Shown here piece by piece: positions 17,661 to 60,741 of a stretch of 64,000 bases of DNA (positions are counted from its first letter, which is position 1; the number at the start of each line of letters is the position of its first letter). The DNA is taken from contig NZ_JAOBWS010000013.1 of NCBI RefSeq assembly GCF_025245835.1, positions 1 to 64,000 of the forward strand. Direction: 5' to 3'. Position numbers and translations under genes: made by a program. Under the pieces are notes generated by a model. That model had not been told where the DNA came from. It ran no database searches and saw only the letters and a list, made by a program, of their open reading frames with translations. The stretch is from Rheinheimera sp. 4Y26. GTDB taxonomy: Bacteria > Pseudomonadota > Gammaproteobacteria > Enterobacterales > Alteromonadaceae.

Positions 17661-17710
17661 CACCAATAAAACAAAAGGCCACCCGGAGGTGGCCTTTTGT
17701 TTTATTGGTG
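17661..17710 (-). terminator. Displaced native terminator of ssrA
   Basis: A perfect 23-bp inverted repeat (17661-17683 and 17688-17710) with a 4-nt loop and T-rich descending arm on the minus strand. One arm overlaps the attL core, which is the 3' end of tmRNA. Read on the minus strand, this hairpin directly follows the CCA end of the tmRNA copy, so it was the ssrA terminator before the element integrated. Confidence 0.8.
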
Positions 17711-17731
17711 GAGCTGGGGGGATTTGAACCC
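17706..17731. repeat. attL: 26-bp copy of the tmRNA 3' end
   Basis: Exact 26-bp direct repeat of 60716-60741, starting TGGTGGAGC. It corresponds to the T-arm and acceptor end of tmRNA, a common tyrosine-integrase target. It marks the left junction of the element inserted in ssrA. Confidence 0.93.
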
Positions 17732-17813
17732 ATAATATTCATATTTATCTCAGTATGTTGGAAGCAAATAAATACTAAATTGCTTAATTCTAGAAACCCA
17801 CCAATAAGTTGAA

Positions 17814-18485
17814 CTAGCACTCAAGTAGTCCAGCATCAACGATGTCTTCAAGTAAAAAAACGACTTCTGTTTTTAAGCATGCAAACGGATATGAGCCGGC
17901 TTTATCTTTGCAAAGAGCGACTAACTTACTTGCATTGTAAATTGCTACCTTGTAGCGCCTTACTAACAAGCTAAAATCTTCATTATTTCTAACTCTATGT
18001 AGATATTGTTTTACGTAGTTGTTTTTGTTTTCAAGTATTTTTTCTAGGTCATTTGTTTTTGTTATATCAATGTAATGCAATATGAGCCATAAATCGAAGC
18101 AAGGATTGGAGCATATTGTAATGTAATTCTTTTGGCGGCACTCTTTTATATTGATTAATGTATTTTTTATGTGGTTTGCCTGAAAATTACTGTCGTGATC
18201 AAATATTACATATGAGCATTCTTTTGTTTTTCTAAATTTGCTAACTCCGCTTGCAATATATTCATTTAGATCTCTGCATATGTGGGTTATCGCGCTATGG
18301 TTTACATTTGTTTTCTTTACGACATGAAGTCGATAATATTTATCAAATTGCCTTGGGATTATTTTTTTTAACGATTCAAAATATAATATTTCATCTTGCC
18401 CTTCGGCTGATAGTACGAAGCAGCAAGGGTCTAATTGTTTTTTATTAAGCTTTCTAGCTGAGGATATTTGGCTTATTTTATTCAT
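17814..18485 (-). CDS. RloB-like (Toprim-fold) effector of a two-gene defence module
   Basis: 223 residues from ATG 18485, which overlaps the upstream ATPase stop by 8 bases (ATGAATAA). Toprim-type acidic motifs are visible: AEGQDEILYFE near the N-terminus and IFDHDSN near residue 85, followed by SNPCFDLWLILHY, typical of RloB proteins. RloB with an upstream ATPase matches the RloA/RloB and AbiL arrangements, thought to act by abortive infection. The gene is clearly richer in AT than the host flank. Its nuclease function is inferred, not proven. Confidence 0.8.
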   Translation of the reverse strand: MNKISQISSARKLNKKQLDPCCFVLSAEGQDEILYFESLKKIIPRQFDKYYRLHVVKKTNVNHSAITHICRDLNEYIASGVSKFRKTKECSYVIFDHDSNFQANHIKNTLINIKECRQKNYITICSNPCFDLWLILHYIDITKTNDLEKILENKNNYVKQYLHRVRNNEDFSLLVRRYKVAIYNASKLVALCKDKAGSYPFACLKTEVVFLLEDIVDAGLLEC

Positions 18486-19821
18486 TACTGGTGCGCTCAA
18501 CTATCGGGATTGCTCCAAATAAGCCATTTAAATATGCACTACGTATATCTTTATCATGTCTTGTAGAATAATCATTCAGTGAGTAAAGAGACGTAGATTG
18601 ATTCCATTCTTTCTGTGCAAACCAAATTTCATCTCGTCTTATGAGTTTTAGATCTAGCAATTCGGACTGGTGGGTAGTTACAATGAACTGCCCCGCATGA
18701 GTGTCAGTGCTAAGAAATTTCTCTAAGAAAAGTTTTGATAAATTCGGATGCAGACTTCTGTCAAATTCATCTACTATAAACGTTGGTTTCAATACGTTCT
18801 TAAGCGCTTCAGAATTTGATAGTACAGGTATTAAGTCTAATAATCTCACTGTTCCATCGGATTCTTCTGACGTAGAAAAGTCAAATTGATTACCATGAAT
18901 GTCTTTGTGTTTTAATATTATTTCATGGATATCAATTTCGTCACCATTTTTCGTTGCTGTGTATTCGCGAAAATTGTTTTCAAACTTAATTGGTTGGTCA
19001 AGAATTTCGATTTCTTTTTTTATCTTGTTTATTAATGATGGGCTAAATAATGATGATTCAACCTTTTCTATGTTTAGACTATCTATGCCAGTATCAAAAT
19101 CTTTTATATTGGCTGTGTAAGAGTTTATAGTTCCATCCTGAACATCATCGGTAAGCCCTCCATAACGACTATTGGGGAATACGATTACTAGGCAATATTT
19201 AAAGTAAAAGAATGCTGCTCTTAGGTAAGACGTAAAATTTTGAGGTAAATCCTTTTGTATTTTTCCGTTCTGACTAACAAAATTTATGATTGATGTGTTT
19301 TCTGGCGCATACTTTGACAATGCACTTATGAAGTTAAGAGTTTCACTATCTGTTATTATGTCGGAGTTGAACTCGTGAAAATCTTTGTCTGATTTTCGCT
19401 CATATATAATTTTCTCGCGATTTTTCTCAATATAAGAAAGTCGTTCGTAGAGGATTCTATCCTTATTCACCTCGAATGTTAGAGCTAAATGGAATGAATC
19501 GATCGTAAACTCAATGTAGAATGAAGCGCTTTCTTTTGGGGTTTTAGTTACCTTGAACGGAGTGAAATCAATTTTTTCGTCACTGGCTTTAGAACTCGTT
19601 ATCAAGTTCTGAACAAAATCTATTGCTTTAACGATGTTTGATTTCCCAGATGCGTTTGCACCATATATCAAACTGGTTTTGAGAACTTTTAGATCTAAAT
19701 TCGATTTAATCGGTTGTACCACATGTGATTTATGGTTTCTTAAGCGAGGAGCTGGCCGGAGGTTTAGCTCAATGGGATCACATATAGAACGAAAATTTTC
19801 TGCTCTAAAACAGACTAACAT
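18478..19821 (-). CDS. AAA (OLD/RloA-like) ATPase of the defence module
   Basis: 447 residues. Walker A GANASGKSN near residue 55, an ABC/SMC-like signature ESDGTVRLLDLIPVL, Walker B FIVDEFDRSLHP and a sensor VTTHQSELL place it in the AAA_15/AAA_21 overcoming-lysogenization-like ATPases. The middle is a long insertion rich in Lys, Asn and Ile. It is the probable sensor or regulator of the RloB-like protein, being first in the two-gene operon. The 284 bases upstream contain the integrase 3' flank and an inverted repeat. Confidence 0.87.
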   Translation of the reverse strand: MLVCFRAENFRSICDPIELNLRPAPRLRNHKSHVVQPIKSNLDLKVLKTSLIYGANASGKSNIVKAIDFVQNLITSSKASDEKIDFTPFKVTKTPKESASFYIEFTIDSFHLALTFEVNKDRILYERLSYIEKNREKIIYERKSDKDFHEFNSDIITDSETLNFISALSKYAPENTSIINFVSQNGKIQKDLPQNFTSYLRAAFFYFKYCLVIVFPNSRYGGLTDDVQDGTINSYTANIKDFDTGIDSLNIEKVESSLFSPSLINKIKKEIEILDQPIKFENNFREYTATKNGDEIDIHEIILKHKDIHGNQFDFSTSEESDGTVRLLDLIPVLSNSEALKNVLKPTFIVDEFDRSLHPNLSKLFLEKFLSTDTHAGQFIVTTHQSELLDLKLIRRDEIWFAQKEWNQSTSLYSLNDYSTRHDKDIRSAYLNGLFGAIPIVERTSNE

Positions 19822-20038
19822 AACACCCTCAATGGATAACGAGAAAATTTCACGTTAAATATAGAGCATGATTGCTCTGTTTACTAGCATTTAATCAAGC
19901 TTTGGTTTCTTAATTCAGAGTTTAAACGTCGTTAAGGCAATATTTTAAACTTTCGACCTTCAAAAGTTCAGGTTTTAAGACTTTTCCAAATTGGGTTAGG
20001 GTCAATGCACTTCGTACAATGACTATATACATTAGCCA

Positions 20039-20078
20039 CCACGGGTGCCCCGCCGCTAAGCGCGGTTCCTCCCCGTGG
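20039..20078. repeat. Inverted repeat after the integrase gene
   Basis: CCACGGG at 20039-20045 pairs with CCCGTGG at 20072-20078, enclosing a smaller CCGC/GCGG hairpin. It lies between the integrase stop and the ATPase promoter. It could be a terminator or an arm-type site near attL; there is no U-tract. The rest of 19822-20105 shows nothing else. Confidence 0.45.
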
Positions 20079-20105
20079 CAGCTGCCTGCTGCTGATTAAA
20101 ATTAT

Positions 20106-21194
20106 TTAGTCAATCCATTGTGCGTAAATGGTTCGGATCATGCCCCAATCTTTATGCCCCATTTGTTTTGCCAGCCAACTTGGATCGCGTTTGGCCGTTA
20201 GCATAGTGGAAGCATAGGTATGACGACAGGTGTATGGCCGTTGATAGGGCACGCCTGCTGCCTTAAGTGCTGGCTTCCAGTGTCTTTCCCGTGGTACGCC
20301 ATCATATTTCCAAGGCTTCATGGTGGACGGATCGAGAAAAACCCGTTCATAATGGCTGAGATTTGGGTGATAGTTGCGAATATTCAGCAACACCCGCAGC
20401 GCCCTGTCATCTAAATGGTGGGTTCGGTCTGAGCTTTCGGTTTTAGTGCCAGCCAGCTTGCCATTGACGATGGATTGCCGGATATAAATACGCTGTTTAT
20501 CAAAATCGACATCTTGCCAGCGTAAGCCCAACTGTTCGCCTGTTCTGAGGCCAGTGCTAAATGCAAAGATGTAAAAATCACGGGCTATCGGATTGGCTAT
20601 TGCATTAATAATTGCTTCGCGCTGTTCTGGCTTAAACGGATTAACCCTTTTGGTTCGGCGTGGCAGTGGTTCGCATTTTTCAATCGGATTGGATTCGATA
20701 ATGCTGTCGTTAAATTGCTCTTTAAAAATGCCATGCATAATGGAGCGTACTTCATTAACAGACTTTGGCGACAGCGTTGAAGCAGCAGCCCAAGTTTTGA
20801 ACATTGATGGTTTAAAGTCGGCAAGCGTGATACTGCCAAAATTAGGCAAAACATGCGTGTTCACTTTGCTGACGTAGCCACGGTAAGTACTACGTGTCCA
20901 GTTTTTGCTTTTGTGTTTAAACCAAATTTCAACAGATTGCCTGATGGTGATATGGGCTGCTTTATTCGGGCTGTGTTTCAGCGCGCGTGGGCTGTTTGGG
21001 AAATGACTGCTGTAGTCAAATTTGCCCATATCAATTTCGTAGATGATTTGTTCACGTTTGACCGCAGCCTCTTTTAATCGGGTTTTGGTGGGCGTACAGC
21101 GGATGGTTTCACGGCAGCGCTCGCCATTAAACATAAAATCAATGCGGATAGAACTTTCACTGGCGTAGATGCCTTTAAATTCAGTTGGTTTCAT
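20106..21194 (-). CDS. int: Tyrosine recombinase (phage integrase)
   Basis: 362 residues: an N-terminal arm-binding part, a SAM-like core-binding domain (about 75-165) and a catalytic domain. Catalytic residues visible are the first Arg in STGLRTGEQLGLRW, the second Arg in RPYTCRHTYAS and the nucleophile Tyr in IYAQWID at the C-terminus. The usual box II His is Tyr here, as in many phage integrases. It sits on the attL side of the element and is expected to recombine the 26-bp ssrA sites. Confidence 0.93.
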   Translation of the reverse strand: MKPTEFKGIYASESSIRIDFMFNGERCRETIRCTPTKTRLKEAAVKREQIIYEIDMGKFDYSSHFPNSPRALKHSPNKAAHITIRQSVEIWFKHKSKNWTRSTYRGYVSKVNTHVLPNFGSITLADFKPSMFKTWAAASTLSPKSVNEVRSIMHGIFKEQFNDSIIESNPIEKCEPLPRRTKRVNPFKPEQREAIINAIANPIARDFYIFAFSTGLRTGEQLGLRWQDVDFDKQRIYIRQSIVNGKLAGTKTESSDRTHHLDDRALRVLLNIRNYHPNLSHYERVFLDPSTMKPWKYDGVPRERHWKPALKAAGVPYQRPYTCRHTYASTMLTAKRDPSWLAKQMGHKDWGMIRTIYAQWID

Positions 21195-21197: not shown

Positions 21198-21407
21198 TTA
21201 TCTCCCTGTGCCTATCCATTGTTGCAAAGCGGCCATGTCAATAAAGATCCGGCCGTTTCGTTTAACCCAATGAACATCCATACGGATTTTGCCTTTGACG
21301 CGCAGTGCATTGATTGCGTCTTTTGTCCAACCGATAAGCTCTGCACATTTTTCTACGGTGACCCAACGGATAGCCGTTGTTTGTGGGTCTGAAATTTGAT
21401 TTTGCAT
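21198..21407 (-). CDS. Excisionase-like winged-helix DNA-binding protein
   Basis: 69 residues from ATG 21407, preceded by GAGGAATAGG as a ribosome binding site. The sequence (TVEKCAELIGWTKDAINAL..GKI..DVHWVKRNGRIFID) is a MerR/Xis-like winged helix. It ends 3 bases before the integrase start, the usual int-xis coupling. The open frame extends further upstream to 21773, but that part lacks coding character and a ribosome binding site. Confidence 0.78.
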   Translation of the reverse strand: MQNQISDPQTTAIRWVTVEKCAELIGWTKDAINALRVKGKIRMDVHWVKRNGRIFIDMAALQQWIGTGR

Positions 21408-21769: not shown

Positions 21770-22009
21770 TCATTCGTTGATTATCCGATAGTGACGGTTA
21801 AATTCAGACTTGGTGAACTGGCAAACGCGGTCAATAAACTTCACGACCATTTCAACTTCTTCGTTTAAGGTCAATACACCGCAGATAATTCCAAGGTTTT
21901 CCGGCAGGAACTTATCACCACGATCTTGTTTGATGACTGTGAGGTTTAGCAGTAATACCACTTCATTTACGGTAAAACTGGTGCTTGGGGTATTCATCTT
22001 TTTATTCAT
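21770..22009 (-). CDS. Small hypothetical protein of the ssrA element
   Basis: 79 residues from ATG 22009 (ATG 21997 also possible). It is a mixed helical protein with FTVNEVVLLLNLTVI and a C-terminal FIDRVCQFTKSEFNRHY. I do not recognise a family. It begins 17 bases after the rep stop in the same orientation, so it is probably co-transcribed with rep. Confidence 0.5.
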   Translation of the reverse strand: MNKKMNTPSTSFTVNEVVLLLNLTVIKQDRGDKFLPENLGIICGVLTLNEEVEMVVKFIDRVCQFTKSEFNRHYRIINE

Positions 22010-22025: not shown

Positions 22026-23549
22026 TTATTTACACAAGTCCAAGGTTGCCACCTCACTCGACAGCACCAGCCCACCTAAAGGCGGGTTGGTGCTATCTCG
22101 GCTCGGCGGCGCAGATGACAAAGACCATCTGCGCGTGCGGGTTTTAATAGTGATACCAAGCAGCGACAGACCCGACAGCGCAGGTTTTCGTAATTCCTGA
22201 TAGCGGTTTAGTGGGCAGCTTTGAATTTCTCCGCTTTGGTAGTCGATAGATTCAGTGGCGCGGATTTCGTAATAGGGGCTTATCAGATGCGCTTTGCGTG
22301 GTGTATCAACGGCATTCATGGCAATACAAAACGCAGCCCAGTTCGAGGCGTCGGCAGCAGCATGGGCTGCATTAAATTCTTCTGTTTGATTTTCGGTTTG
22401 TTTTAGACGACGAAGCTCGCGCCAAACTGTGACACTAGGGCCACCAATTTGCTGAAACTGGCGAATACCGGCAGCCTTTGACCATGCGTTAATTCTTGCT
22501 GCAGCTAAGTTTGATGGCTGACCACTGGTGTCGGTTCCAACCTCAAAGCCGTCGATGTTCTTGGCGATGTACTTAGCGATATATCCGGCAGCACTGCCTT
22601 TGTTGGGGTCAATATCAATAAACTTAACCCGATACTGTTTTGCGCCTTTTTCATCGGGCGAATCTTGCAGGCCGTAATGGGTGACAATCTCTTTAAATGT
22701 TTTGATCTGCTCGACTGGCATAAACAACAGCAAATGCCAGTGTGGTGTGCCGTCGTGATGCGGTTCTACTACCCGAAAGCCATAGGGCTTAATTTCGTCG
22801 CGATCAAACTTGGCGCGACATAGCTGCCAAACGTGGTTTAGGTAGTCCTGTGCATCGTTGATGCTAGAACCGTCATAATTTGGGTTCGGAATTCCGCTTG
22901 CATTGGTGGCGTGCATTCTTGATGGCGTGGTTAAAGTGACAAATACCGCCGCATGCTGACAATACTGGGCGACTTCTTCAAAACCACGAATTCTGACCAT
23001 CAATTCATGACGACGGATCACCGGATTACTAATGTTGTGCTGTGCGATTTCTGCCAAAGAAATACTGAAACCTTCGTCATTCTGCAAATAGCTGTTTTGC
23101 ATATATTGCTGACTTAGTTGCTGGTTCTGCTTATAGCGATGTAACGACACATCGCCGCAATACACGGCACGACGTTTTGACACATAACCTAATGCACGTT
23201 CAACTTGGTTAATCAGCGAGGCCGTTTTACGGCGAATACGGCGCAACCAGAATTTGGCATCCTGCAGGCGGTTTTTAATTTCCTGTTCGGTGTAGGCAAG
23301 TTTGCCAAGCTGGTATTTTTCAAAGTGGTTAATTGCGGTGCTGAGGTCGGCAGTTTTGCAAAAGTCAGCTTGTGTAATGGCAAAGGCTTTTAGTCTGGCA
23401 TGGTCGATAGAAAAGTCTAAATCTGCAATCACCATGTTCTGATGGATGGTGTTCAGTAAATACAGCGCGTGGTTTTCTTCAACCAGCTGCTGATCAGCGA
23501 GGTATTTTTGCAGTATTTCGCGGCTGGTAAAACTTGCGGGGGAGGGCAA
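22026..23549 (-). CDS. HUH replication endonuclease (phage GPA/Rep family)
   Basis: 507 residues from TTG 23549. It has the HUH metal motif in PHHDGTPHWHLLLF (near residue 265) and the two-tyrosine motif YIAKYIAKNIDG (near residue 323), as in P2 gpA-type rolling-circle initiators. Upstream of TTG the same frame stays open into the prophage without ATG or GTG and encodes a Cys/His repeat (NFCHPSANFC), so the true start is uncertain. The prophage inserted about 90 bp upstream of the TTG and may have removed its promoter. Role: nicking and replication of the excised element. Confidence 0.85.
   Translation of the reverse strand: MPSPASFTSREILQKYLADQQLVEENHALYLLNTIHQNMVIADLDFSIDHARLKAFAITQADFCKTADLSTAINHFEKYQLGKLAYTEQEIKNRLQDAKFWLRRIRRKTASLINQVERALGYVSKRRAVYCGDVSLHRYKQNQQLSQQYMQNSYLQNDEGFSISLAEIAQHNISNPVIRRHELMVRIRGFEEVAQYCQHAAVFVTLTTPSRMHATNASGIPNPNYDGSSINDAQDYLNHVWQLCRAKFDRDEIKPYGFRVVEPHHDGTPHWHLLLFMPVEQIKTFKEIVTHYGLQDSPDEKGAKQYRVKFIDIDPNKGSAAGYIAKYIAKNIDGFEVGTDTSGQPSNLAAARINAWSKAAGIRQFQQIGGPSVTVWRELRRLKQTENQTEEFNAAHAAADASNWAAFCIAMNAVDTPRKAHLISPYYEIRATESIDYQSGEIQSCPLNRYQELRKPALSGLSLLGITIKTRTRRWSLSSAPPSRDSTNPPLGGLVLSSEVATLDLCK
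22064..22134. repeat. Two hairpins in the 3' coding end of rep
   Basis: First: 13-nt arms 22064-22076 and 22081-22093 (GCACCAGCCC / GGGTTGGTGC, two imperfect pairs) with a TAAA loop. Second: perfect 9-bp arms GCGCAGATG / CATCTGCGC at 22109-22117 and 22126-22134. P2 is known to keep its nick origin inside gene A, so this could be the replication origin; that is inference. Confidence 0.55.
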
Positions 23550-23556
23550 CTTGCGG

Positions 23557-23598
23557 CAAAAGTTGGCGCTGGGATGACAAAAGTTGGCACTGGAGTGA
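23557..23598. repeat. 21-bp tandem repeat upstream of rep
   Basis: Two adjacent 21-bp units (23557-23577 and 23578-23598) beginning CAAAAGTTGGC, matching at 18 of 21 positions. In the rep frame each encodes a (S/P)SANFC-like unit with His. They could be iteron-like sites or a coding repeat in the rep N-terminus. Confidence 0.7.
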
Positions 23599-23636
23599 CA
23601 ATTTCCAGACGTGTCTGGACTGCTGTAGCCAAAGTC

Positions 23637-23641
23637 ATTGG
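23637..23641. repeat. Left 5-bp target duplication ATTGG
   Basis: ATTGG directly precedes the prophage left end and is repeated at 60636-60640 directly after the right end. Five-base duplications are the normal product of MuA-type transposition. Confidence 0.92.
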
Positions 23642-23994
23642 TGTAACCAACCGTATGGATTGATAAATATAGATAAAAACCGGGAATAGGTGAAATAACG
23701 CGGGATTTGGTGGGAAAGCCTGATGTAATAAGGCTTCTAACGTTATTTAATGCATGTTTAAGCTATCAGCAAATCGGATCCAGAAATCAGAAGTTTGAAA
23801 AAAAGTATGCCCTTATCGTGAAACCTAAAATCAATCAGAATGATAAATCGAAAAGCTCAAATTGCTACCTGAATTAACCCGCAAGCCAGCACTATCAACG
23901 CATTCAAGCTCTACTTACCAATAAAACACGCAGTTGAGCAAAAAGAATTGGATCTGATCCGATTATTTTACCGAATCAGATCTGCAGATCCGAT
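23642..23994. other. Prophage left end (attL region, transposase binding)
   Basis: Starts TGTAACCAACCG. The first 27 bases match the inverted right end at 20 positions, sharing the block ATGG.TTGA.AAAT, probably transposase site L1. The rest of the 353 bp has no gene. A long inverted repeat with GGATCTGAT/ATCAGATC (about 23950-23990) just after the repressor stop may be its terminator. Confidence 0.8.
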
Positions 23995-24636
23995 TTAATT
24001 TCCAATGTCTTTTGAAATATTGACCACCTGGCCAACGATCTCAAAACTTGATTGCTCATCAAGCTTAATTTCCATTGGGGGATATACAGGGTTATCGCTG
24101 AGTAGAATCCAAGAGGATGCTTTAACCTGCATTCTCTTTACCCATAGCGAATCCTCAAACCTTATAACGTAAATGTGCCCATCAATAGGTCTTTTGCGGC
24201 TGGTATTGATTACCAGGGTATCGTTGTTGTGGATAGTAGGCTCCATACTGTCGCCTTTGGCCCAAACAATCACTAAATCACTTTCTTTAAAGCCCCTGTA
24301 TTGCAACCACTTCTTGCGGTATGCCAGGAATCTGGAAGGGGCCTCATTCTCAAATGCAGTAGAACCATGCCCGGCAGAGACCTGCACAGAGTAACCAGGA
24401 ATAAGCACAAACTCATGCATAAACTGGCTTACGTCATCTGCTTTCACGTCAGATTTTTGATTAGTCGCTAACACCGTTTCAGGCAGCAGATATTCGACCC
24501 CAGGGCCACGCACACCATCATGCTTTCTGACTAACCATCCCTCTTTTTTTGCCTTTTTATGAACCCCAGGGACGGAAGAAGGCATTCCCTGCAATTCAGT
24601 TATTTGTTTTGGGGTTAACCAACACTCTGTGCTCAC
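23995..24636 (-). CDS. Mu-type repressor with LexA-like S24 peptidase domain
   Basis: 213 residues from GTG 24636, supported by AGAGG seven bases upstream. The N-terminus (CWLTPKQITELQGMP..GPGVEYLLPETV) is the Mu-type winged helix also seen in the transposase. The C-terminus is an S24 domain with Ser in GDSMEPTIH and Lys in LWVKRM, plus an Ala-Gly pair (VSAGHGS) suitable for self-cleavage. It should hold lysogeny and be inactivated by RecA after DNA damage, unlike the repressor of Mu itself. Confidence 0.9.
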   Translation of the reverse strand: MSTECWLTPKQITELQGMPSSVPGVHKKAKKEGWLVRKHDGVRGPGVEYLLPETVLATNQKSDVKADDVSQFMHEFVLIPGYSVQVSAGHGSTAFENEAPSRFLAYRKKWLQYRGFKESDLVIVWAKGDSMEPTIHNNDTLVINTSRKRPIDGHIYVIRFEDSLWVKRMQVKASSWILLSDNPVYPPMEIKLDEQSSFEIVGQVVNISKDIGN

Positions 24637-24827
24637 AAATGCCTCTGGTTTATAAATGGTTAATCATTCGGTTAATAATTAAATTTCTTTATAAAACAAA
24701 GTTTTATAAGAAATAAACAGAAATCTTGAAATGAACCGATTGATAAACCGAAGTTTATATATAAACTAATAAGCAACTACGCTTAGTAGAACTGTTAAAA
24801 GGTTAATTGAAATTGCGGAGAATTGGA
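24637..24827. promoter_or_regulatory. Early control region between repressor and ner
   Basis: Divergent 191-bp region with repeated TCGGTT/AACCGA motifs (near 24673, 24735 and 24747) and a strong AT-rich palindrome AGTTTATATATAAACT. A promoter for the early operon can be proposed with TTGATA (24740-24745) and TAAACT (24762-24767), spaced 16 bp. The AACCGA repeats overlap it and are likely repressor or Ner operators. Confidence 0.55.
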
Positions 24828-25046
24828 ATGGAAAGCAAAGACTGGCACAGAGCTGATGTGATCTCCTCCCTTAAAAAGGCAGGCTGGTCAATGGCGTCTT
24901 TATCCAGAAAGCATGGATTGCAAAGCGGCACCCTTTACAACGTATTGGTTACTCATTGGCCCAAGGGAGAGCGGTTGGTTGCCGATGCTATTGGTACTGA
25001 ACCGGAAATTATTTGGCCAAGTCGCTACGCTCGGAAGTTGAAATAA
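24828..25046 (+). CDS. ner: Ner-like transcriptional regulator
   Basis: 72 residues from ATG 24828 with GGAG upstream. The helix-turn-helix (DVISSLKKAGWSMASLSRKHGLQSGTLYNVL) and the tail (AIGTEPEIIWPSRY) match the Ner/SfsB family. In Mu, Ner shuts down early and repressor transcription. Its TAA overlaps the transposase ATG (TAATG). Confidence 0.9.
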   Translation: MESKDWHRADVISSLKKAGWSMASLSRKHGLQSGTLYNVLVTHWPKGERLVADAIGTEPEIIWPSRYARKLK

Positions 25047-27283: not shown

Positions 27284-27354
27284 CAAAGGTGCGTCTCCCG
27301 GCAACCGGCCAAGCTGTACCAGAGCAAGGCCACTTACAACACGGAGTATAACGG

Positions 27355-28080
27355 ATGAAACATAAAACGGTAGAAGTAAAAAATGTGCTGCGAACGCAGG
27401 CTATGTTTGAAAACCTGCAATCCCGCAGCATGATCACCCCTGGGATTGGGTTGATTCATGGCCCATCTGGGTTCGGCAAAACCACGACAGTGACTTACAT
27501 GTTTAACGAATTAACCTTGTCAGGCCATCAGCCTTTATATGTTCGTTGCTATGCCACCGACACAGCCAGCAGCATCCTTGCAAGGATTATGAATGAAATG
27601 GGCGCTGACCCAATGTTCCCTCTTCGCAAAATGGTCGATTACATCATTCGTAATATGAATGAGAAAGGGCTGGCGTTATTTGTCGATGAAGCTGATCACA
27701 TTGTTGGCCAGGCAAAAACGATGGAAACCATCCGAGATTTATATGACAGCACAGAACAGCCAGTAGTGCTTATTGGTATGGAGGAAATTGCACGTCGAAT
27801 CTCACACCGCAAGCAGCTTTTTAACCGCATCAGTGAATGGGTTGAATTTAAGGCCGCTGATATTGAAGACGTTAATTTGTTTGCCATTGAGCTGCTTGAT
27901 GAAAGAGTAAAAGTGGCAGAAGACCTGCTCGAATACATCCGCTCAAAGTCAGCTGGTGAAGTGCGCCGCATCTTAATCGCTTTAGAAAAGATTGAGCGTG
28001 CTGCATTGGCTAGTGATGAAGATTATGTCGATTTGCATAGCTGGGGAGACCGTCCTTTGTTCTTGAGTCATCGCCGTTAG
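27355..28080 (+). CDS. MuB-type AAA+ ATPase, transposition target selection
   Basis: 241 residues. Walker A GPSGFGKTT and Walker B ALFVDEADH are intact, with sensor segments (VVLIGMEEIAR) and a C-terminal helical domain. It is shorter than Mu B because the N-terminal HTH appendage is missing, as in B3/D3112-like phages. It follows the transposase by 71 bases. Confidence 0.9.
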   Translation: MKHKTVEVKNVLRTQAMFENLQSRSMITPGIGLIHGPSGFGKTTTVTYMFNELTLSGHQPLYVRCYATDTASSILARIMNEMGADPMFPLRKMVDYIIRNMNEKGLALFVDEADHIVGQAKTMETIRDLYDSTEQPVVLIGMEEIARRISHRKQLFNRISEWVEFKAADIEDVNLFAIELLDERVKVAEDLLEYIRSKSAGEVRRILIALEKIERAALASDEDYVDLHSWGDRPLFLSHRR

Positions 28081-28095
28081 ACCGAGGATATTCAG

Positions 28096-28674
28096 ATGAA
28101 TAAACACGAATTAGCGTGGAACTATATGAAACAAAAGGATTGTTTTTTGGTTTCTGAAGTAGCTAATGCAGTGGATATGGATATCGAACTCTGCCGTAAA
28201 TCAATTAAAAGACTTGAAGAAAAAGGCTGTGTGCAAGTGATTAGTGGTATTGGCGTCGCAGGGCGTCCCTTTGTCTACAAAGTGATAGCCAGCAACGATG
28301 CCAAACCCCAGTTTGGTCGGGGTGGGACAGTTGGAAATAAGCGGCTGAGAAAAGGCAAAACTGGGCAGCAGTTAATTTGGAATAGCCTCCGAATTAACCG
28401 CGTTGCCACTGTCAGCATGATTGTGGCTGTGACTCAGGTCTCCGAACGGACTGTCTATCGCTATTTAAATTCATTAGAAAAAGCGGGTTATGTCAGCTGT
28501 CGACGTCCCAGCCGCGAAAACAAAAGCAATCAGGAGCGAATTGGTGAAGAGGGGGCTTGGGTATTGCGTCGTGAAACTGGCCCTAAAGCACCTATTTTGC
28601 GACGGAGTGAGGGATTTTGGGATCAAAACGAACAGAAGCTTTATCCCTTCCAGCAAGTTGGAGGTCAGGAATGA
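28096..28674 (+). CDS. Early protein with two winged-helix motifs
   Basis: 192 residues. Two helix-turn-helix-like segments are visible: CFLVSEVANAVDMDIELCRKSIKRLE near the N-terminus and RVATVSMIVAVTQVSERTVYRYLNSLEKAGY near residue 115. It is probably a DNA-binding early regulator. The family was not recognised beyond that. Its stop overlaps the next ATG (ATGA). Confidence 0.7.
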   Translation: MNKHELAWNYMKQKDCFLVSEVANAVDMDIELCRKSIKRLEEKGCVQVISGIGVAGRPFVYKVIASNDAKPQFGRGGTVGNKRLRKGKTGQQLIWNSLRINRVATVSMIVAVTQVSERTVYRYLNSLEKAGYVSCRRPSRENKSNQERIGEEGAWVLRRETGPKAPILRRSEGFWDQNEQKLYPFQQVGGQE

Positions 28675-29165: not shown

Positions 29166-29167
29166 GA

Positions 29168-29443: not shown

Positions 29444-29483
29444 CTGATTTAACCCACCAAATACCATCGCAAGAGGATTCCCC

Positions 29484-30546: not shown

Positions 30547-30627
30547 AGCGAAACAGCCCGGTATTGGTGACCGGGTTGTCTATCTAGCGTCGTGGCTGGG
30601 TACTGAAGAGCAGCGAAAAGGTTGTAT

Positions 30628-46589: not shown

Positions 46590-46592
46590 ACC

Positions 46593-46715: not shown

Positions 46716-46718
46716 GCA

Positions 46719-47669: not shown

Positions 47670-47730
47670 TCCTTTGTGGCAAGGATGCCTTTAACCGCTT
47701 TTTAAAACCCATTAAAAACCGAGGTAAACA

Positions 47731-48595: not shown

Positions 48596-48628
48596 TAATC
48601 CATACCTTATCCGGGAAAAAGCTGCAGT

Positions 48629-54250: not shown

Positions 54251-55680
54251 GTTTCAGCCAATGGATCAAAACACCAGGTGTCGACCGCTGCTATTTAGTG
54301 GAGTTTCAGGCGCGCCAGGCAGGCGAGCTGGTGACCGTGCGCCGTTCAACGCACCCATACCGTACCGGGCCATTGGATGTGCCGGCATTTACACCTTACC
54401 TGGACACCATTTTATCTGTGGGCAGCTGGGGCCGCGAACTGACCGAACTCTTTACCGGTTATAGCACTACCGCCAAGACCAGCATTGAGCTGTATCTGGA
54501 TGATGAATTACTGGCGTTAATTGAGTCTGCCAACGTTGGCGGCCTGCCGGTAACCATTCGTTGTGGTGATGCCGGCTGGCCTTTGGCTGATTTTGGCTTG
54601 GTGGTGTCTGCCACGGCGGATGCGTTAGTGGCCACCAGTTTTGATACTGCCCAGCTGACCTTGCGCGATAGTGCAGAGCTGCTGCGCCGGCAATTACAAA
54701 ACACCTTAATTAGTGTGGGGCCAAACCTTGGCAAGCCTGTGCCTATTTGCCTGGGCCGCTGTTTTAATATCAGCCCGGTACTGATTAATGAAGCCACCAA
54801 AACTTACCAGGTACATGACGGCGCTATTCAGGCCATTACTGCAGTGCGTGAAAATGGCGTGGCCATTCCATTTACTGCCAATGTGGCTGCAGGCACGTTC
54901 TCGCTGACCAACAATGCCAAGGGCAGAGTAACCGCTGACGTGGATGGCGCCAAAGTGTCGGATGTTTGGCTGCAAACCGCTGCACAGATGATCACCTACC
55001 TGGTTGGCCGCTTTGGTATCGCAGAGCCAGCCGGCTTAAGTGCGCTGCCGGCATATCAGCTGGGCCTTTATGTTTCGGCTGAAAAGCAGCTGGCCACAGT
55101 GCTTGATGACATCAGTGCCAGTGTTGGCGCTGCCTGGTATTACAGCAGAACCGGTCAGTTGCAGTGGCTGTTTTTTAACGGCCCGACTGAGCCAGTGGCC
55201 ACTCTTCACGCTGATGATATTGAAGACAACACCTTATGGCCGCGCCGGCGGATTGCGCCGGCTAAAACCGTCAAACTGGGTTACCGGCGCAACTGGACAC
55301 CACAGGCAGATGGCCTGGCAGGCTCAGTGCGTGAAACCACGCCAGCCCTGGCCACAACGTATGAACAGGAAGAATCTGCCTATACCGCGCCAAATGCCGG
55401 CGTAACGGGCAATTTTCCGGATGCAGCTGACGTTACGGCCAGCACGCTGATTGTCACGCTTGCCGATGCCACAACAGAAGCCAACAGGCGTGCTGCCTGG
55501 TCAGCTGTTCCCCGCACTGTGTTTGAGTTTTCGGCTTTTGCCGCTCCTTTTAACCTCGATTTAGGCCAAACCGTGACTATTGAATATCCACGCTATTTTT
55601 CTGAAGGCGGCCATGCGGTGATCACCAGGCTTAGGGATGACTTATTAACTGACACCTGCGTACTGGAGGTAGTCCGTTGA
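54247..55680 (+). CDS. Tail tip/hub protein
   Basis: 477 residues, beta-rich, starting FSQWIKTPGVDRCYLVEFQ. The order after the tape measure and segments such as LGKPVPICLGRCFNISPVLI and TVKLGYRRNW fit a distal tail/hub protein of transposable siphophages. The enzymatic role is unknown. Overlaps both neighbours. Confidence 0.7.
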   Translation: MSFSQWIKTPGVDRCYLVEFQARQAGELVTVRRSTHPYRTGPLDVPAFTPYLDTILSVGSWGRELTELFTGYSTTAKTSIELYLDDELLALIESANVGGLPVTIRCGDAGWPLADFGLVVSATADALVATSFDTAQLTLRDSAELLRRQLQNTLISVGPNLGKPVPICLGRCFNISPVLINEATKTYQVHDGAIQAITAVRENGVAIPFTANVAAGTFSLTNNAKGRVTADVDGAKVSDVWLQTAAQMITYLVGRFGIAEPAGLSALPAYQLGLYVSAEKQLATVLDDISASVGAAWYYSRTGQLQWLFFNGPTEPVATLHADDIEDNTLWPRRRIAPAKTVKLGYRRNWTPQADGLAGSVRETTPALATTYEQEESAYTAPNAGVTGNFPDAADVTASTLIVTLADATTEANRRAAWSAVPRTVFEFSAFAAPFNLDLGQTVTIEYPRYFSEGGHAVITRLRDDLLTDTCVLEVVR

Positions 55681-56522
55681 ATAATGTCCGCATGATCATG
55701 AACAACAAATGGGACGGCGCCGCACTTGCCATCAGTACAGGAACGGCCATTGGTTCACTGCCACTTTCCAACAGCCAGGTTTATGGCCGCAGCAAGACCA
55801 CAGGCGTTATGCCGGATGAAAACGGCTTATCGGTCATCAAATTTGACCTGCAGGAATTAACGCTGTTAAACGGCCTGGTGCTGTACCGACACTTCCTCAG
55901 TAATGGCGCCAAGTGGCAGGTGGAGCTTTTTGAAGGCCCGGATTGTACTGGCGTCAAACTTTATGACAGCACCTTATTGGATGCTATCCCAACCAAAACC
56001 CTGGGCGAGCTGGATTGGTTAGTTGATCCGCTGGTGTCCAGTGCCTTTGATAACTGGCCGTTTCGTTTCTCTCAGTTGTGGTTTGCCGAAACCTTTGCGC
56101 TTTCTGGTCGCATTACCTTGCTGGACAGTGCCAGCAAAGATGGCATTCACGAATTTGACCGGGTTTATCTTGGCCAGGCATTTACGCCTTCGGTGAACTT
56201 CAGCTGGTCTTCTGAATTTGCCTGGCAAACCACAGCACAGCAAAAAGTGACAGCTGCAGGCTCTGTATTTGCAGCAGCTAAACCAAAAACAAGGCAGCTG
56301 GCACTGTCCATGGACTACATACCGGAAACCGAGCGCCCGCATATTTCAGCAGCCATTCAACACGTTGGTTTAAGCCGTGATTGGTTTATCAGCCTTTATC
56401 CGGGCACAGGTGGCATCAAAGAAATTGAACATGCAATGGCCGCTAAATTCACAGCGCTGCCGCCAATCTCCAACAACTTTTTTAATAACTACACGGCCAA
56501 GTTTTTGGTTCGGGAGGCATAA
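55677..56522 (+). CDS. Tail tip protein
   Basis: 281 residues from TTG 55677, with GGAGG seven bases upstream and a TTGA overlap with the previous stop. Beta-sandwich-like composition (carbohydrate-binding-like LVLYRHFLSNGAKWQVELFEG). It belongs to the tail tip module. No precise family is recognised. Confidence 0.65.
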   Translation: MNNVRMIMNNKWDGAALAISTGTAIGSLPLSNSQVYGRSKTTGVMPDENGLSVIKFDLQELTLLNGLVLYRHFLSNGAKWQVELFEGPDCTGVKLYDSTLLDAIPTKTLGELDWLVDPLVSSAFDNWPFRFSQLWFAETFALSGRITLLDSASKDGIHEFDRVYLGQAFTPSVNFSWSSEFAWQTTAQQKVTAAGSVFAAAKPKTRQLALSMDYIPETERPHISAAIQHVGLSRDWFISLYPGTGGIKEIEHAMAAKFTALPPISNNFFNNYTAKFLVREA

Positions 56523-56933
56523 ATGACAGCTCCACTTTCACCACCTGGCGTGGTGTTTTCGGCAGCGAATAAAGGCGGGGATTATCTTGCCAAATTGCAG
56601 CTATTGGCCCAGGGCGTTGATACAGCGGTTAACGCTTTTAATGCTCAGCTTGAAGCCGCTGAAACTGCAGATCAAATCCGGCTGGCCACTGCACAAATCA
56701 AAAACGATGTGCAGGTTATCCAGACAGAAATAAACCAGGCTCTGGCAGCGGCTTATGCCGCCATTGGCACAGCAGGCGACACCGCAACTTATGCCACTCA
56801 GCTTGTGACTGCTCGCCTGATTGGCCAAAAGCCATTTGATGGCACAGCGAACATCCAGCTCGACACCGGGGACATCACAGGGCTTCAGGAAAAGCTTGAT
56901 GACATTGAATTAACTGCATTGATGGGGCTGTAG
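56523..56933 (+). CDS. Tail fibre-adjacent protein
   Basis: 136 residues. Central coiled coil (VNAFNAQLEAAETADQIRLATAQIKNDVQVIQTEINQAL) and a fibre-like QKPFDGTANIQLDTGDITGLQEKLDDIEL C-terminus resembling phage tail-fibre repeats. It probably connects fibre to tip. It begins at the base after the previous stop. Confidence 0.65.
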   Translation: MTAPLSPPGVVFSAANKGGDYLAKLQLLAQGVDTAVNAFNAQLEAAETADQIRLATAQIKNDVQVIQTEINQALAAAYAAIGTAGDTATYATQLVTARLIGQKPFDGTANIQLDTGDITGLQEKLDDIELTALMGL

Positions 56934-56934
56934 C

Positions 56935-58935
56935 ATGACGATTGCAACAACAAATTTAAAAGCACAGGTTCAGGCAAGAATTGATGCTGCGACAGGCGCA
57001 ACAAGCCTGAAAGACCTGGCGGCCATTCGTATGGCGGCTGAAGGATTGGGCTGCAACGAATCTAATACCGACACTCTTATTGCTGCAAAGTTAGCGGCAA
57101 TGAATGGCGAAACACTGTTAAAGGATATGCTCCTGGGACGGAAGGCCAGTGAACTCCCACAAGGAACGGTGCTGTATTCGGCTCCATTTGATGTAAGCGC
57201 CGGCGACGATATTTATATTGATGTGCTGGGTAAGTTAAAGAAAAAGCAGCATCCAGTGAAGATGGCGGTGGTAGCCTCTGGCGTTAACCAGTATCTGAAT
57301 TCTTCCAGTTCATTCCGCACTTACCTTAATACACATCGTGGCGGCCAGCCTGGCGGTAGTACTGACCTTTGGTGTTTTAGCTACACATTACAAGATGGCA
57401 ATATCATGTTTGGTGCGTTAACCGGAAGCGCATCAACTAATGCGCTTTGCCACACCTTTATCGTGAATCCTACGGACATGGCGGTGCTGAGCTATCAGGC
57501 AGTGAATATTTCCTATGGTTCCGGCAACTCTTCTAACTTCAGGGGAGTCGGTCTTCGTGAAGTTTCAGCTAACACATTTCGTCTGTATTTTGCGGCAGCA
57601 TCAAGTGGTGAGTCGAACCCTGTTTCAATAACCTTTAATACTCTGACTTATAACCCTGCAACCAAGGCTGTCACTACAGCTGCTGGCACTACAATTCAGA
57701 CATCGCCTGGTGGTGCTTTCGATTCGGTGTCGAATAAACAAGGTGACCGCTATGTGCTGATGCACACAAGCATTTACACCTATTGTTTGGATATGCAAAA
57801 CGGCACTGTAAACACTTATTCTGGTATTTCAGGTGTTACAGGTCTTAGTCAGGTCGTTCAGTTCGATGTTGACAGCGTTGGATATGAATACGCATTAGTT
57901 TTGGTCGGTGCCACGCCAAAGCTCCTTAAAGCTGGCGTCGACTCGGTGCTTGATATTCCTGCCAACCTTGCTGCTGACGGATGTGTCGGAACCGGCTGGG
58001 TTAAAACCAGAATTGGAGCTGGCGCTTACATTACCCGCAATCAAACCACCAAAGTTATGAAACTTGTGAAGTTCAGCGCTGACTACACAACCTGCGTTAT
58101 TTACACCCTGTCATCTAACTACGAAGGCACTAACGCATCAAATAACGGCGAAGCTGTTTATAAAAAAGGAGACCGTTATTGGTTCATACCTAACAACCTG
58201 GCCACATCAGCTGTCTCATTCCTTTGGGATGGTGTGAATGCTCCCACCGGTTTTATGGTGTCTCCAAATGTATCGCCCTGGGATGCTCCTTATCTCGGTG
58301 GCAGGGGCAAGGTTGTTGCATCTTCAGCAGATACTTTAGTGAACATGGCCGGAGTGATCACAAGTAACAGCGGCGGTGTTCTGGCTTATGGCGCTTACAT
58401 ACAGTTGTGTGATGCAGCAGAGTCATTTTCTACCAGGGCAACTAAGGTTGGCACCGCTATTACTGATGCAGACGCCAATAACCTTTTTGAGCTGCAACTG
58501 AATGCTAAAACAACTTTTGTTACCTCTTCGCTGACAACTGATCCTGAGCGGATTAGTCATGGTGGATTGGTTACAAAACTTGAGAAGTGCCGGCCTCAAA
58601 AAGTCGAACTGATGAACGAATCGAGTGCTGCGCTTAGCCAAAGCAATATTGGTGACGCAATAGACTGCAGCACGGCACTCAGCACATCAGGCATTCAAAA
58701 TATATCGTTTGGCAAAGGCGCATTAGTTCTCAACGAAGCAGACACAGAGACAACCTGGCGTGTCACATTCGAAACCGGGCCGACGCAAGGAGGTATCTCA
58801 GCAACTCACTTAAATGGTTACCGCCAAACAGTTGGCTCTACTACTGCGCTTGTAGCGGCACGTATCAACTCACCAAAACCAGTGCTGGTGTCCACCTATG
58901 GCGCAACGGTTCTGACAGGAGAAACACCCGTATGA
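56935..58935 (+). CDS. Putative tail fibre/receptor-binding protein
   Basis: 666 residues, Thr/Ser/Asn-rich with many short strands, the usual composition of a fibre. The N-terminus is helical (TTNLKAQVQARIDAATGATSLKDLAAIRMAAEGLG), likely attaching to the upstream protein. The C-terminus is the probable receptor-binding part. The gene after it resembles a fibre chaperone. The family is not recognised precisely. Confidence 0.72.
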   Translation: MTIATTNLKAQVQARIDAATGATSLKDLAAIRMAAEGLGCNESNTDTLIAAKLAAMNGETLLKDMLLGRKASELPQGTVLYSAPFDVSAGDDIYIDVLGKLKKKQHPVKMAVVASGVNQYLNSSSSFRTYLNTHRGGQPGGSTDLWCFSYTLQDGNIMFGALTGSASTNALCHTFIVNPTDMAVLSYQAVNISYGSGNSSNFRGVGLREVSANTFRLYFAAASSGESNPVSITFNTLTYNPATKAVTTAAGTTIQTSPGGAFDSVSNKQGDRYVLMHTSIYTYCLDMQNGTVNTYSGISGVTGLSQVVQFDVDSVGYEYALVLVGATPKLLKAGVDSVLDIPANLAADGCVGTGWVKTRIGAGAYITRNQTTKVMKLVKFSADYTTCVIYTLSSNYEGTNASNNGEAVYKKGDRYWFIPNNLATSAVSFLWDGVNAPTGFMVSPNVSPWDAPYLGGRGKVVASSADTLVNMAGVITSNSGGVLAYGAYIQLCDAAESFSTRATKVGTAITDADANNLFELQLNAKTTFVTSSLTTDPERISHGGLVTKLEKCRPQKVELMNESSAALSQSNIGDAIDCSTALSTSGIQNISFGKGALVLNEADTETTWRVTFETGPTQGGISATHLNGYRQTVGSTTALVAARINSPKPVLVSTYGATVLTGETPV

Positions 58936-59324
58936 TGATTTTTAACCGAGCTGCAGAAAATGCGACTGACCTTCTAACGAATACTGAAGCCCCGAAAATT
59001 AGCGAAACAGACTTAGGTCGACGCATTACCGTTAATGCCTTTTGGGGCCGTTTTTCATTTGAAGAATCCGTTGCTTTTGAAAACGCTTTGTCATCGAGTG
59101 CCGAGCTGCGAGTGCTTGATAAAAGGCTGGCTGCAGTTGTTGCCACATATGTTGATTTAAATGATCCAATGTATGAAACGGTAGCAATGCCGGCATTGGT
59201 AGCTGCAGGCATTTTGAGTTCAGAGCGTCCTGGAGCGATTTTATCTGCCCCAACTCAGTGGAAAGAACTGCCCCCATCTATCCAGCAGAGTTTTATTGAT
59301 GCTGGTTATCAAATCGACGTTTAA
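58932..59324 (+). CDS. Small protein after the fibre gene, possible fibre assembly factor
   Basis: 130 residues from ATG 58932 (ATGA overlap). Helical, with RRITVNAFWGRFSFEESVAFENAL and a C-terminal QWKELPPSIQQSFIDAGY. The position argues for tail fibre assembly or attachment. No clear family. Confidence 0.6.
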   Translation: MMIFNRAAENATDLLTNTEAPKISETDLGRRITVNAFWGRFSFEESVAFENALSSSAELRVLDKRLAAVVATYVDLNDPMYETVAMPALVAAGILSSERPGAILSAPTQWKELPPSIQQSFIDAGYQIDV

Positions 59325-59338
59325 ATAGGTTTTGAAAC

Positions 59339-59770
59339 ATGCTGAAACTAGCTTTTTATAAAGGCCAAAAACGTTTCGTTAACTTCGCTATCAGTAAAGC
59401 CACTGGCGGCCCATATTCGCATGTGGAAGTGATTATTAAAGAGTTGGGGAATGGATTTTGCCTTTGCTTATCATCGTCAATGATGGATGGCGGGGTGCGA
59501 ATTAAAGTTATCTGCTTGCAAACAGAGGACTGGGAGATAGTTAATTCTGGTATCGCGGGCGTGAGTGAAAGTGATGCCTGGGAATGGTTCTACAAATACC
59601 ACCGTTGCACGTATGACTACTATGGTGCGTTACGCCATAAACTTCACTGGCTGGATGAAGTGGAAGACAAGTTTTATTGCAGCGAAGTGGTATGCCACCT
59701 TTTTAAACTCGAACATCCACAGCTCAATCCAAATCAGCTGTATAAGCACATTAAAGCCTTAGTGGTGTAG
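59339..59770 (+). CDS. Permuted papain-like (YiiX/NlpC-type) hydrolase
   Basis: 143 residues. The catalytic set of permuted papain-fold enzymes is visible: His in GGPYSHVEV near residue 29 and Cys in FYCSEVVCHLF near residue 115, with a preceding DYYGALRHK. Such enzymes are amidases, peptidases or lipid hydrolases; in a phage this could cut cell wall during entry. It ends the late operon. Confidence 0.75.
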   Translation: MLKLAFYKGQKRFVNFAISKATGGPYSHVEVIIKELGNGFCLCLSSSMMDGGVRIKVICLQTEDWEIVNSGIAGVSESDAWEWFYKYHRCTYDYYGALRHKLHWLDEVEDKFYCSEVVCHLFKLEHPQLNPNQLYKHIKALVV

Positions 59771-59777
59771 CAAGCAC

Positions 59778-59820
59778 CCTCCAGCTGAGGTATAGATAAA
59801 GCTTCAGCTGGAGGTTTTTT
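59778..59820 (+). terminator. Late-operon terminator overlapping the SRAP ribosome binding site
   Basis: 11-bp stem CCTCCAGCTGA (59778-59788) / TCAGCTGGAGG (59804-59814) followed by six T and then ATG 59821. The descending arm contains GGAGG, exactly six bases before the ATG, so the hairpin can hide the binding site of the SRAP gene. Confidence 0.85.
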
Positions 59821-60516
59821 ATGTGCGGAAGACTAAACGTATCAGATGACCCACTGGTCATTGGCCTGATGGGGGCGCTGGGAATGCCGCTCTTTGAAAA
59901 AGAACGTTACCCATTGCGTACCGGGCGATTTATCAAAGCAACGAATGTAGTGTCTATCGTGCTTGAAGAGCATGGCCAGCGCAGATTGCAAGATGCTATT
60001 TGGTGGTTGTTACTAGAACCAACCGAAACAGGCTTTAAGCCCTCACAATACACTTCATTTAACACCCGTTACGATAAGCTCAACGTCAAAGGCAGCGCTG
60101 GATATATTCCTTACCGCAAACAACGTTGCATTATTCCGGCATCAGGCTTTGGCGAAACCGAAGTGAGTAATGGCAAAACCTTATACACGGACTTTATTGG
60201 GAATGAGGCGATTGCCTTTGGTGGCCTATACAGAACTTGGGTGCATAAGGACACCGGAGAGATGGTTTACTCTTGCTCAGTGATCACCTTACCACCACAC
60301 CCAAAACTAAAGCCTTATCACACCAAAGCAATGCCATTAATGTTGCCAAAAGGCATCATGGACGATTGGCTTTCACCAGGTGTTACTAACACAGACCTTT
60401 TTAATGACCTTTTAAAGCCGGTATTAAGGGTTGATTTAAAGGGTATTACGATAGATAAACCAAGCCACCACCAGCAGATTGGAGAATCCTTTGAGTTGGC
60501 AAAGGATAATGATTAG
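59821..60516 (+). CDS. SRAP (HMCES/YedK-type) abasic-site crosslinking protein
   Basis: 231 residues starting MCGRLN, so after Met removal the catalytic Cys is N-terminal. Family motifs NTRYDKLN, RCIIPASGFGETE and PHPKLKPYHTKAMPLMLP are present. SRAP proteins form a covalent bond with abasic sites in single-stranded DNA and protect it. In a phage it could guard replicating DNA. It is the last gene of the prophage, 119 bases before the right end. Confidence 0.88.
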   Translation: MCGRLNVSDDPLVIGLMGALGMPLFEKERYPLRTGRFIKATNVVSIVLEEHGQRRLQDAIWWLLLEPTETGFKPSQYTSFNTRYDKLNVKGSAGYIPYRKQRCIIPASGFGETEVSNGKTLYTDFIGNEAIAFGGLYRTWVHKDTGEMVYSCSVITLPPHPKLKPYHTKAMPLMLPKGIMDDWLSPGVTNTDLFNDLLKPVLRVDLKGITIDKPSHHQQIGESFELAKDND

Positions 60517-60584
60517 GGCGTTTGCATCAAATTGGGGCAGGGGAAATCACTTGGTTTGATAAAATTAAACCGTTTAATCTGACA

Positions 60585-60635
60585 AATTTGTCAAACCATA
60601 TGACGCGAATTTGTCAAACCATGCGGCGCGCTACA
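60585..60635. other. Prophage right end with tandem transposase sites
   Basis: Two exact copies of AATTTGTCAAACCAT at 60585-60599 and 60608-60622, spaced 23 bp as in Mu R1/R2, then GCGGCGCGCTACA to the terminus. The inverted terminal 27 bases match the left end at 20 positions. Confidence 0.88.
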
Positions 60636-60640
60636 ATTGG
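60636..60640. repeat. Right 5-bp target duplication ATTGG
   Basis: Matches 23637-23641. Joining the two flanks restores a continuous element sequence, GTCATTGGCGACAAGG. Confidence 0.92.
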
Positions 60641-60682
60641 CGACAAGGTGTAGTTTTAAACTATTGGATTTAAAGGAGATTT

Positions 60683-60710
60683 GAGAAGCGGCGCAGCTTG
60701 CGCCGCTCTC
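60683..60710 (-). terminator. Element-supplied hairpin now downstream of ssrA
   Basis: 12-bp stem (GAG, bulged A, AGCGGCGCA / TGCGCCGCT, CTC) six bases after the tmRNA 3' end on the minus strand. The U-tract is poor. It probably replaces the displaced ssrA terminator or protects the 3' end. Confidence 0.55.
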
Positions 60711-60715
60711 ATTTG

Positions 60716-60741
60716 TGGTGGAGCTGGGGGGATTTGAACCC
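60716..60741. repeat. attR: 26-bp tmRNA 3' end
   Basis: Exact copy of 17706-17731. It restores an intact ssrA after integration. Confidence 0.93.

Follow-up and report, generated by a model that had tools for sequence, protein, structure and literature searches.

Small elements integrated at the tmRNA gene of Rheinheimera and related bacteria whose attachment site probably splits the gene for the replication initiator

The 3′ end of ssrA, the gene for transfer-messenger RNA (tmRNA), is the integration site of I23, I44 and I55, 23–55-kb islands of Pseudomonas published in 2025 that contain an integrase, AlpA, defence genes and, in many cases, an inovirus Gp2-like protein, and that are transduced by a jumbo phage (PMC12595487). 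A second class, PICMI, comprises elements of ~6.7 kb with int, AlpA and a replication gene, defence cargo and no capsid remodelling; integration at fis is its hallmark, and complete copies are described from Vibrio only (PMC10803314). Here we analyze a 64,000-nucleotide stretch of Rheinheimera sp. 4Y26 (contig NZ_JAOBWS010000013.1, positions 1 to 64,000; hereafter the window), in which a small defence-carrying element occupies the same tmRNA site. In this element and its relatives, the attachment (att) core lies within the reading frame of rep, the gene for an HUH-type replication initiator (Rep).

The window element resembles the I55-type islands in its integration directly behind the tmRNA gene with a direct repeat, its tyrosine integrase, its defence cargo and the absence of transfer genes. 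It differs from them in size (6 kb, against <20 to >70 kb) and in gene arrangement, since IntY lies near one end of those islands and alpA near the other, whereas int and the excisionase gene xis are adjacent here. The ~18-kb shared region of the islands, with YqaJ and helix-turn-helix genes, has no counterpart in the 6-kb element, and an att-split rep is not mentioned in the available part of PMC12595487. Membership in PICMI was considered and rejected: the window element encodes a Phage_GPA Rep instead of the prim primase, no primase is found among its proteins to complete an int, alpA and prim set, and both it and its relatives use the tmRNA 3′ end instead of fis.

Attachment sites within coding genes have been described in two other settings. 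Archaeal SSV-type “suicidal” integrases contain attP inside a coding gene that is fragmented on integration (PMC8371274); there the integrase itself is split, a case stated to be confined to archaea, whereas here the replication initiator would be split. In the integration-dependent immunity of mycobacteriophage BPs, attP lies in a regulatory gene and integration alters the product (PMC4557955); the BPs repressor loses its C-terminus to give the prophage form, whereas the initiator would lose its start. Defence islands at the tmRNA site that are moved by a jumbo phage are already known; a replication initiator split by its att site was not encountered in the literature searched.

In the window, the tmRNA gene ends in a 26-bp sequence that recurs exactly at 17706-17731. 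The parts of the putative split rep and of the sequences that separate them are as follows.

17706..17731, minus strand: distal att copy, exact 26-bp repeat; its first bases fall in the rep frame as G followed by GGT TCA AAT (frame analysis)
17731..17742, minus strand: candidate start half of the split rep, with in-frame ATG at 17742-17740 and 17733-17731, reading into the att core and, here, onward into host DNA
22026..23641, minus strand: phage-distal piece of the rep body, a P2-gpA-type HUH Rep (PF05840, E=2.6e-82), with its frame open to the target duplication
23642..60635, plus strand: nested Mu-like phage of 36,994 bp inside the rep frame, identified from TG...CA ends (TG at 23642, CA at 60635), a 5-bp duplication and Pfam matches
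60636..60740, minus strand: N-terminal piece of the rep body directly behind the tmRNA end, consisting of the att core and ~27 codons, with no stop in the frame of rep
60716..60741, minus strand: proximal att copy, the tmRNA 3′ end
60716..61073, minus strand: host ssrA (tmRNA) gene

The candidate start half is contained in an open reading frame (ORF) at 17407-17820 on the minus strand, which holds MNIMGSNPPSST. The window Rep has the features of the P2 gpA family of HUH initiators, namely the GPA domain, the HUH motif PHWH and a two-tyrosine (YxxxY) motif in YIAKYIAK.

Relatives were collected using the window Rep as query. In the named genome collection three relatives were found, L001 (92%), L002 (84%) and L003 (79%), all in Rheinheimera and all at ssrA without the Mu-like phage. 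In a family sample of 395 whole genomes, 75 contain a Rep match at E<=1e-40. The loci returned by the searches were inspected, and a locus was assigned to ssrA when a tmRNA lay within ~1.5 kb. By this definition the tmRNA-adjacent loci comprise 17 of 29 non-own loci in the family-sample search, 1 of 29 non-own loci in a further search and 1 of 5 regions from a class-wide search (L103). The rep-positive ssrA loci number 20 with the window and represent 11 genera (groups g1, g11, g16, g18, g27, g29, g39, g46, g50, g117 and g214) in 3 families (f1, f7 and f93). The integrase is present in 6 of the 22 genomes of the genus. The original prediction had assigned the 26-bp repeats and the integrase to an element older than the Mu-like phage, and this is borne out by 19 other ssrA loci that contain the same rep but not that phage.

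In 17 of the 19 non-window loci, reading from the att core in the frame of rep, which is constant among them, meets no stop for 547-622 codons. The earliest in-frame ATG in these 17 loci is at codon 84 or beyond, 325-357 codons separate the core from the HUH motif, and the remaining two frames are shut after 10-77 codons. At the opposite end, an in-frame start precedes the distal att core in all 15 elements that have one, the nearest being 1-12 codons away (ATG in 11, TTG in L039 and L040, GTG in L103 and L107). The other two frames contain a start in 2 and 3 of the 15 elements, or 0 and 1 when ATG alone is counted; the excess in the rep frame gives a Fisher p of 4.5e-8, a value which, like the other p values here, overstates the significance because the loci are related and not independent.

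The sequence behind the core also behaves as coding sequence. Substitutions favour the third codon position in 8 of 8 pairs with gap-free alignments (counts of 95/85/140 in 7 of these pairs; p 3e-4), and a repeated C-H-x-x-A-N-F-like motif was seen by eye in several loci. When the best of several starts was taken for each element, ribosome-site pairing was better than at other start-like codons (p 2.7e-4), although picking the best favours this result. A promoter scan yielded no excess over shuffled sequences (13 sites vs 14.0). In the rep-less element L206, which was excluded from the count, this frame runs into a stop 11 codons from the core. The simplest reading of these sequences is that attP lies within the coding start of rep and that integration parts the start from the body.

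Several observations weigh against this reading or are exceptions to the common pattern. Five loci (L002, L003, L037, L046 and L106) have no distal att at <=4 mismatches, L037 ending at a contig end. The gene order is incomplete in L002, which lacks int and xis, and in L043 and L103, which give no match to the small ORF termed orf78 below, and L106 is decayed, with a frameshifted and broken rep. The core-crossing frame of L103 (146 codons) overlaps a rep ATG that lies in a different frame. In-frame GTG or TTG codons follow the core as closely as codon 9 (L046), 19 (L040) or 27 (L041 and L042), so a shortened Rep could be made from the integrated form. No sequence resembling a ribosome site precedes the start in L043 and L044. 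Finally, the distal att of L206 is still accompanied by an in-frame ATG, plus one in another frame, although this element has no rep, and the distal start by itself thus proves little.

Taking both sides together, we consider it likely that these loci form a family of small integrative elements in which attP occupies the 5′ coding part of rep, integration splits the gene, and Rep is confined to the circle. The family, its gene order, the fixed frame across the core and the presence at the far end of a start in that frame are read directly from the sequences. In the proposed mechanism, an element of 4-9 kb with a shared core of HUH Rep, orf78, excisionase and integrase would attach at the tmRNA 3′ end. 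Integration would strand the rep start codon, with any promoter and ribosome site, at the far end and would leave the rep body behind ssrA without a usable start, so that Rep would be silent. Excision by Int and Xis would reunite start and body. Rep, presumably made solely from the excised circle, would thereby limit rolling-circle replication and the spread that depends on it to that form.

The Mu-like phage in the window is flanked by the target duplication ATTGG at 23637-23641 and 60636-60640. Pfam analysis of 10 of its ORFs identified a Mu-type transposase, a Mu-like portal, an F protein, a protease, a gpT head protein and a tape measure protein, among others. The window rep does not simply start at the TTG at 23549, since no stop interrupts its frame before the phage is reached, and the right flank is also free of stops in that frame. 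From these open flanks and the comparison with relatives, the phage is placed inside the rep reading frame and not merely upstream of the gene. The two pieces of the rep body are separated by the phage; this copy of the element is therefore probably unable to replicate. It is probably immobilised as well, yet the defence genes could continue to be expressed and to work. Neither the location of the att core in rep nor the interruption of rep by the phage had been foreseen by the original prediction, and the same is true of the filamentous-phage genes adjoining the core of L003 that are described below.

A comparable junction was observed in L086, a lake-type viral contig in IMG/VR, where the same core genes directly abut the left end of another Mu-like phage. 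This second phage also enters the 5′ part of rep (~9998-10001) in the same orientation, ~120 bp further in than in the window; the junction was read by eye, at the near end of this phage. L086 is the one relative returned by the window Rep from IMG/VR. The L041 query returned 4 loci at 27-40% and the L044 query gave, among the best 80 of 598 matches, up to 39%, one of them on the contig of L086; the L049 query returned no match in IMG/VR. Presence in IMG/VR was considered as a sign of packaging and set aside, as the sole relative of the window Rep there adjoins a Mu-like phage. Within the window phage, a type II hammerhead ribozyme (30546-30619, plus strand; 59.1 bits, gathering threshold 37) is found in the early region just before an ORF at 30622, and an SRAP/HMCES-like peptidase is encoded at the right end (59821-60516, plus strand). 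Relatives of the latter adjoin int in the ssrA element L001 (9950-10630) and lie near the ssrA locus in L002 (14304-15107).

Removal of the phage and one ATTGG leaves, as had been proposed, 6,037 bp with both att copies (43,036 - 36,994 - 5), and the circular form would measure 6,011 bp. All the named genes of the element (RloB-like, AAA_21 ATPase, tyrosine integrase, excisionase, small ORF and Phage_GPA Rep) lie on the minus strand, and the predicted order of a defence pair, int, a xis-like gene, a small ORF and an HUH rep was confirmed using Pfam, PHROG and PADLOC. The features not listed above are the following.

17663..17708, minus strand: terminator-like hairpin directly behind the distal att
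17814..18500, minus strand: RloB/AbiLii-like protein, 228 aa, cargo (PF13707, E=9.9e-21; PADLOC AbiLii, E=1.3e-13)
18478..19821, minus strand: AAA_21 ATPase, AbiLi-like, 447 aa, cargo (PF13304, E=4.4e-26; PADLOC AbiLi, E=3.7e-74)
20106..21194, minus strand: tyrosine integrase, 362 aa (PF12167, PF14659 and PF00589)
21198..21407, minus strand: excisionase-like protein (phrog_9668 excisionase, E=7.9e-11)
21770..22006, minus strand: conserved small ORF, orf78

An AbiLi ATPase together with AbiLii was recognised by PADLOC in the window element, which predicts an AbiL-type (RloA/RloB-like) defence pair. The excisionase start near 21407 was chosen by us; the ORF list gives 21198-21773, and the upstream part appeared by eye to be unlike L001. 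For orf78 no Pfam or PHROG match was obtained. An alignment of 15 orf78 sequences contains 7 invariant columns, and the AlphaFold model is poor (mean pLDDT 56.3). The hairpin behind the distal att is probably the displaced original ssrA terminator. A perfect GC-rich inverted repeat at 60692-60716, right behind the tmRNA end and also within the rep reading frame, may act as the ssrA terminator after integration.

In most loci the order is tmRNA, rep, orf78, xis, int and cargo, with the tmRNA end repeated after the cargo; the distal att is found with <=4 mismatches in 15 of the 20 loci. Elements with both ends span 4,056 bp (L039) to 9,071 bp (L001), the window element without its phage measuring 6,011 bp, and L039 contains a single 70-aa ORF besides the core genes. 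The cores of L049 and L050 are 88.5-91.7% identical, compared with 67.6% for the adjacent host DNA, which suggests element exchange between hosts. L044 and L045 are 94.4% identical through host flank and core and unalike from the cargo onward; the cargo thus differs even among near relatives. In L206 (9322-12248), an ssrA element of the genus, rep has been lost while int and cargo remain, and one cargo protein (181 aa) appears by eye to be ADP-ribosyltransferase-like.

Outside L003, Pfam analysis of 24 cargo proteins identified SRAP, a nucleotidyltransferase/HepT pair, a HAD hydrolase, an IrrE-like peptidase and a ParE toxin, together with weak matches below the cutoff; the rest have no family. 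PADLOC analysis of 37 proteins detected PDC-M18A in L001 and, among the remaining loci as a group (the output not resolving the locus), PD-Lambda-2_B, “Hydrolase”, a type II methyltransferase, PDC-S04 and PDC-S16. Structural phage families were found neither by Pfam among the 24 proteins nor in the top 25 of 45 PHROG families for the 37 proteins. These data point to an exchangeable cargo slot whose contents often appear defence-like, being in part defence- or toxin-like. The proposed absence of capsid and conjugation genes holds for the cargo ORFs scanned, a subset of all ORFs; it does not extend to the filamentous-phage genes beside L003, a locus that has no distal att.

Matches to the window rep and int in phage records (324 and 854 records) are all <60%. 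In plasmid records, the rep matches (69) are likewise all <60%, and 1 of 126 int matches is at 60-80%. A second GPA-rep locus of the same genome, L035 (G000:C11:478000-497000), extends over 6278-12928 with an int of 411 aa and a rep of 644 aa, and a tRNA-Arg gene lies ~1 kb beyond. Similar int/rep pairs are found near tRNA-Arg in L051-L053 and near tRNA-Met in L055.

How such elements travel may be explained in more than one way; the original prediction had named a helper phage or plasmid replication as candidates, and we infer that a helper would probably be needed. Satellite RS1 relies on CTXphi as helper, and in the same manner the Rep of these elements could make a single-stranded circle that a helper inovirus packages. 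Among phage records, the top-ranked match to Rep comes from the Shewanella inovirus Dolos (OP867012; 34.5% over 93%), ahead of P2-like phages; Vibrio inoviruses (Vaf1 and a Vibrio Tubulavirales phage) and a corticovirus also rank high. Directly beyond the ssrA core rep-orf-xis-int of L003 (Rheinheimera riviphila KYPC3), genes for Phage_DNA_bind (helix-destabilising), a large surface-type protein, DUF2523 and Zot occupy 15579-18467, and pDolos, an inovirus satellite plasmid of Shewanella, is mentioned in print. Nevertheless, Zot was found near the core in 1 of 17 ssrA loci using the L003 Zot as query, a search that a divergent Zot would escape; it is absent from the genome of the window and present in 2 of 22 genomes of the genus. 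The inovirus genes of L003 may belong to a neighbour, since no distal att was found within the region searched, and P2-like phages as well as a corticovirus encode related Reps. The Dolos genome includes genes for coat, Zot and single-stranded-DNA-binding (SSB) proteins and no annotated integrase, unlike the window element, in which no Zot/pI, coat or SSB genes were found. Packaging by a filamentous helper is a real possibility, though less likely than not. Somewhat more doubtful is the wider proposal that integration acts as a replication switch in a broad satellite family, with the attachment site lying in the coding region of the HUH initiator, Rep made by the circle and not by the chromosomal form, and the single-stranded circle passed on by a filamentous helper; one lineage, L003, adjoins a filamentous morphogenesis module. 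A satellite or hitchhiker of tailed phages, including jumbo phages, is a serious possibility, although we lean against it. The combination of attachment gene, integrase, AlpA-like or excisionase gene and defence cargo without transfer genes is common to the I55-type islands, which jumbo phage transduces (PMC12595487), and PICMI are of similar size and minimal content (PMC10803314). Size and gene order are nevertheless unlike I55, and PICMI use prim and fis; no terS, capsid-remodelling or packaging gene was recognised here, but PICMI lack these too.

Two further explanations would remove the need for a dedicated family or for a split gene. The elements might be decayed P2-like or inovirus prophages that retain int and rep by chance, as the Rep belongs to the P2 gpA family, L002, L106 and L206 are visibly decayed and L003 has its inovirus module. 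Against this stand a rep frame without interruption in 17 of the 19 other loci, the intact att pairs in 15 of 20, the same order across divergent hosts and the L049/L050 cores that are more alike than their host DNA. The Phage_GPA Rep is shared with P2-like phages, whose structural genes were not found here. The gene order of P2 is different, xis and int here lying downstream of rep on the same strand. The original prediction had named a full-length P2-like phage with the same int and rep at ssrA as the finding that would reveal a decayed prophage. No such phage is present at any of the 20 rep-positive loci; descent from a P2 prophage was rejected, and chance retention in general is hardly credible. 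The open frame across the att core could instead be a by-product of the stop-free tRNA-like 3′ end, as the loci are related, tmRNA ends are conserved and some GTG or TTG starts lie behind the core. This is very unlikely, given that the other frames shut within 10-77 codons, that the third-position excess lies behind the core, that all 15 elements with a distal att have a far-end start in the rep frame and that the frame is closed in the rep-less L206. The split of rep by integration remains the preferred reading. Of the suggestion that the window contains an undescribed satellite type, a distinct family of small elements with a probably att-split rep survives; tmRNA-integrated defence islands with integrase and AlpA were already in print (PMC12595487).

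If the split of rep is as proposed, an initiator gene made whole only by excision would amount to a lysogeny-like switch that is very simple and needs no repressor. Such a switch would parallel the archaeal suicidal integrases and the integration-dependent immunity of mycobacteriophages, in another gene, and would offer one reason why an element of 4 kb can manage with almost no regulatory genes. A rep frame that is open into the tmRNA end, with its start at the far end, would also provide a signature by which such defence-carrying elements may be found and delimited elsewhere.

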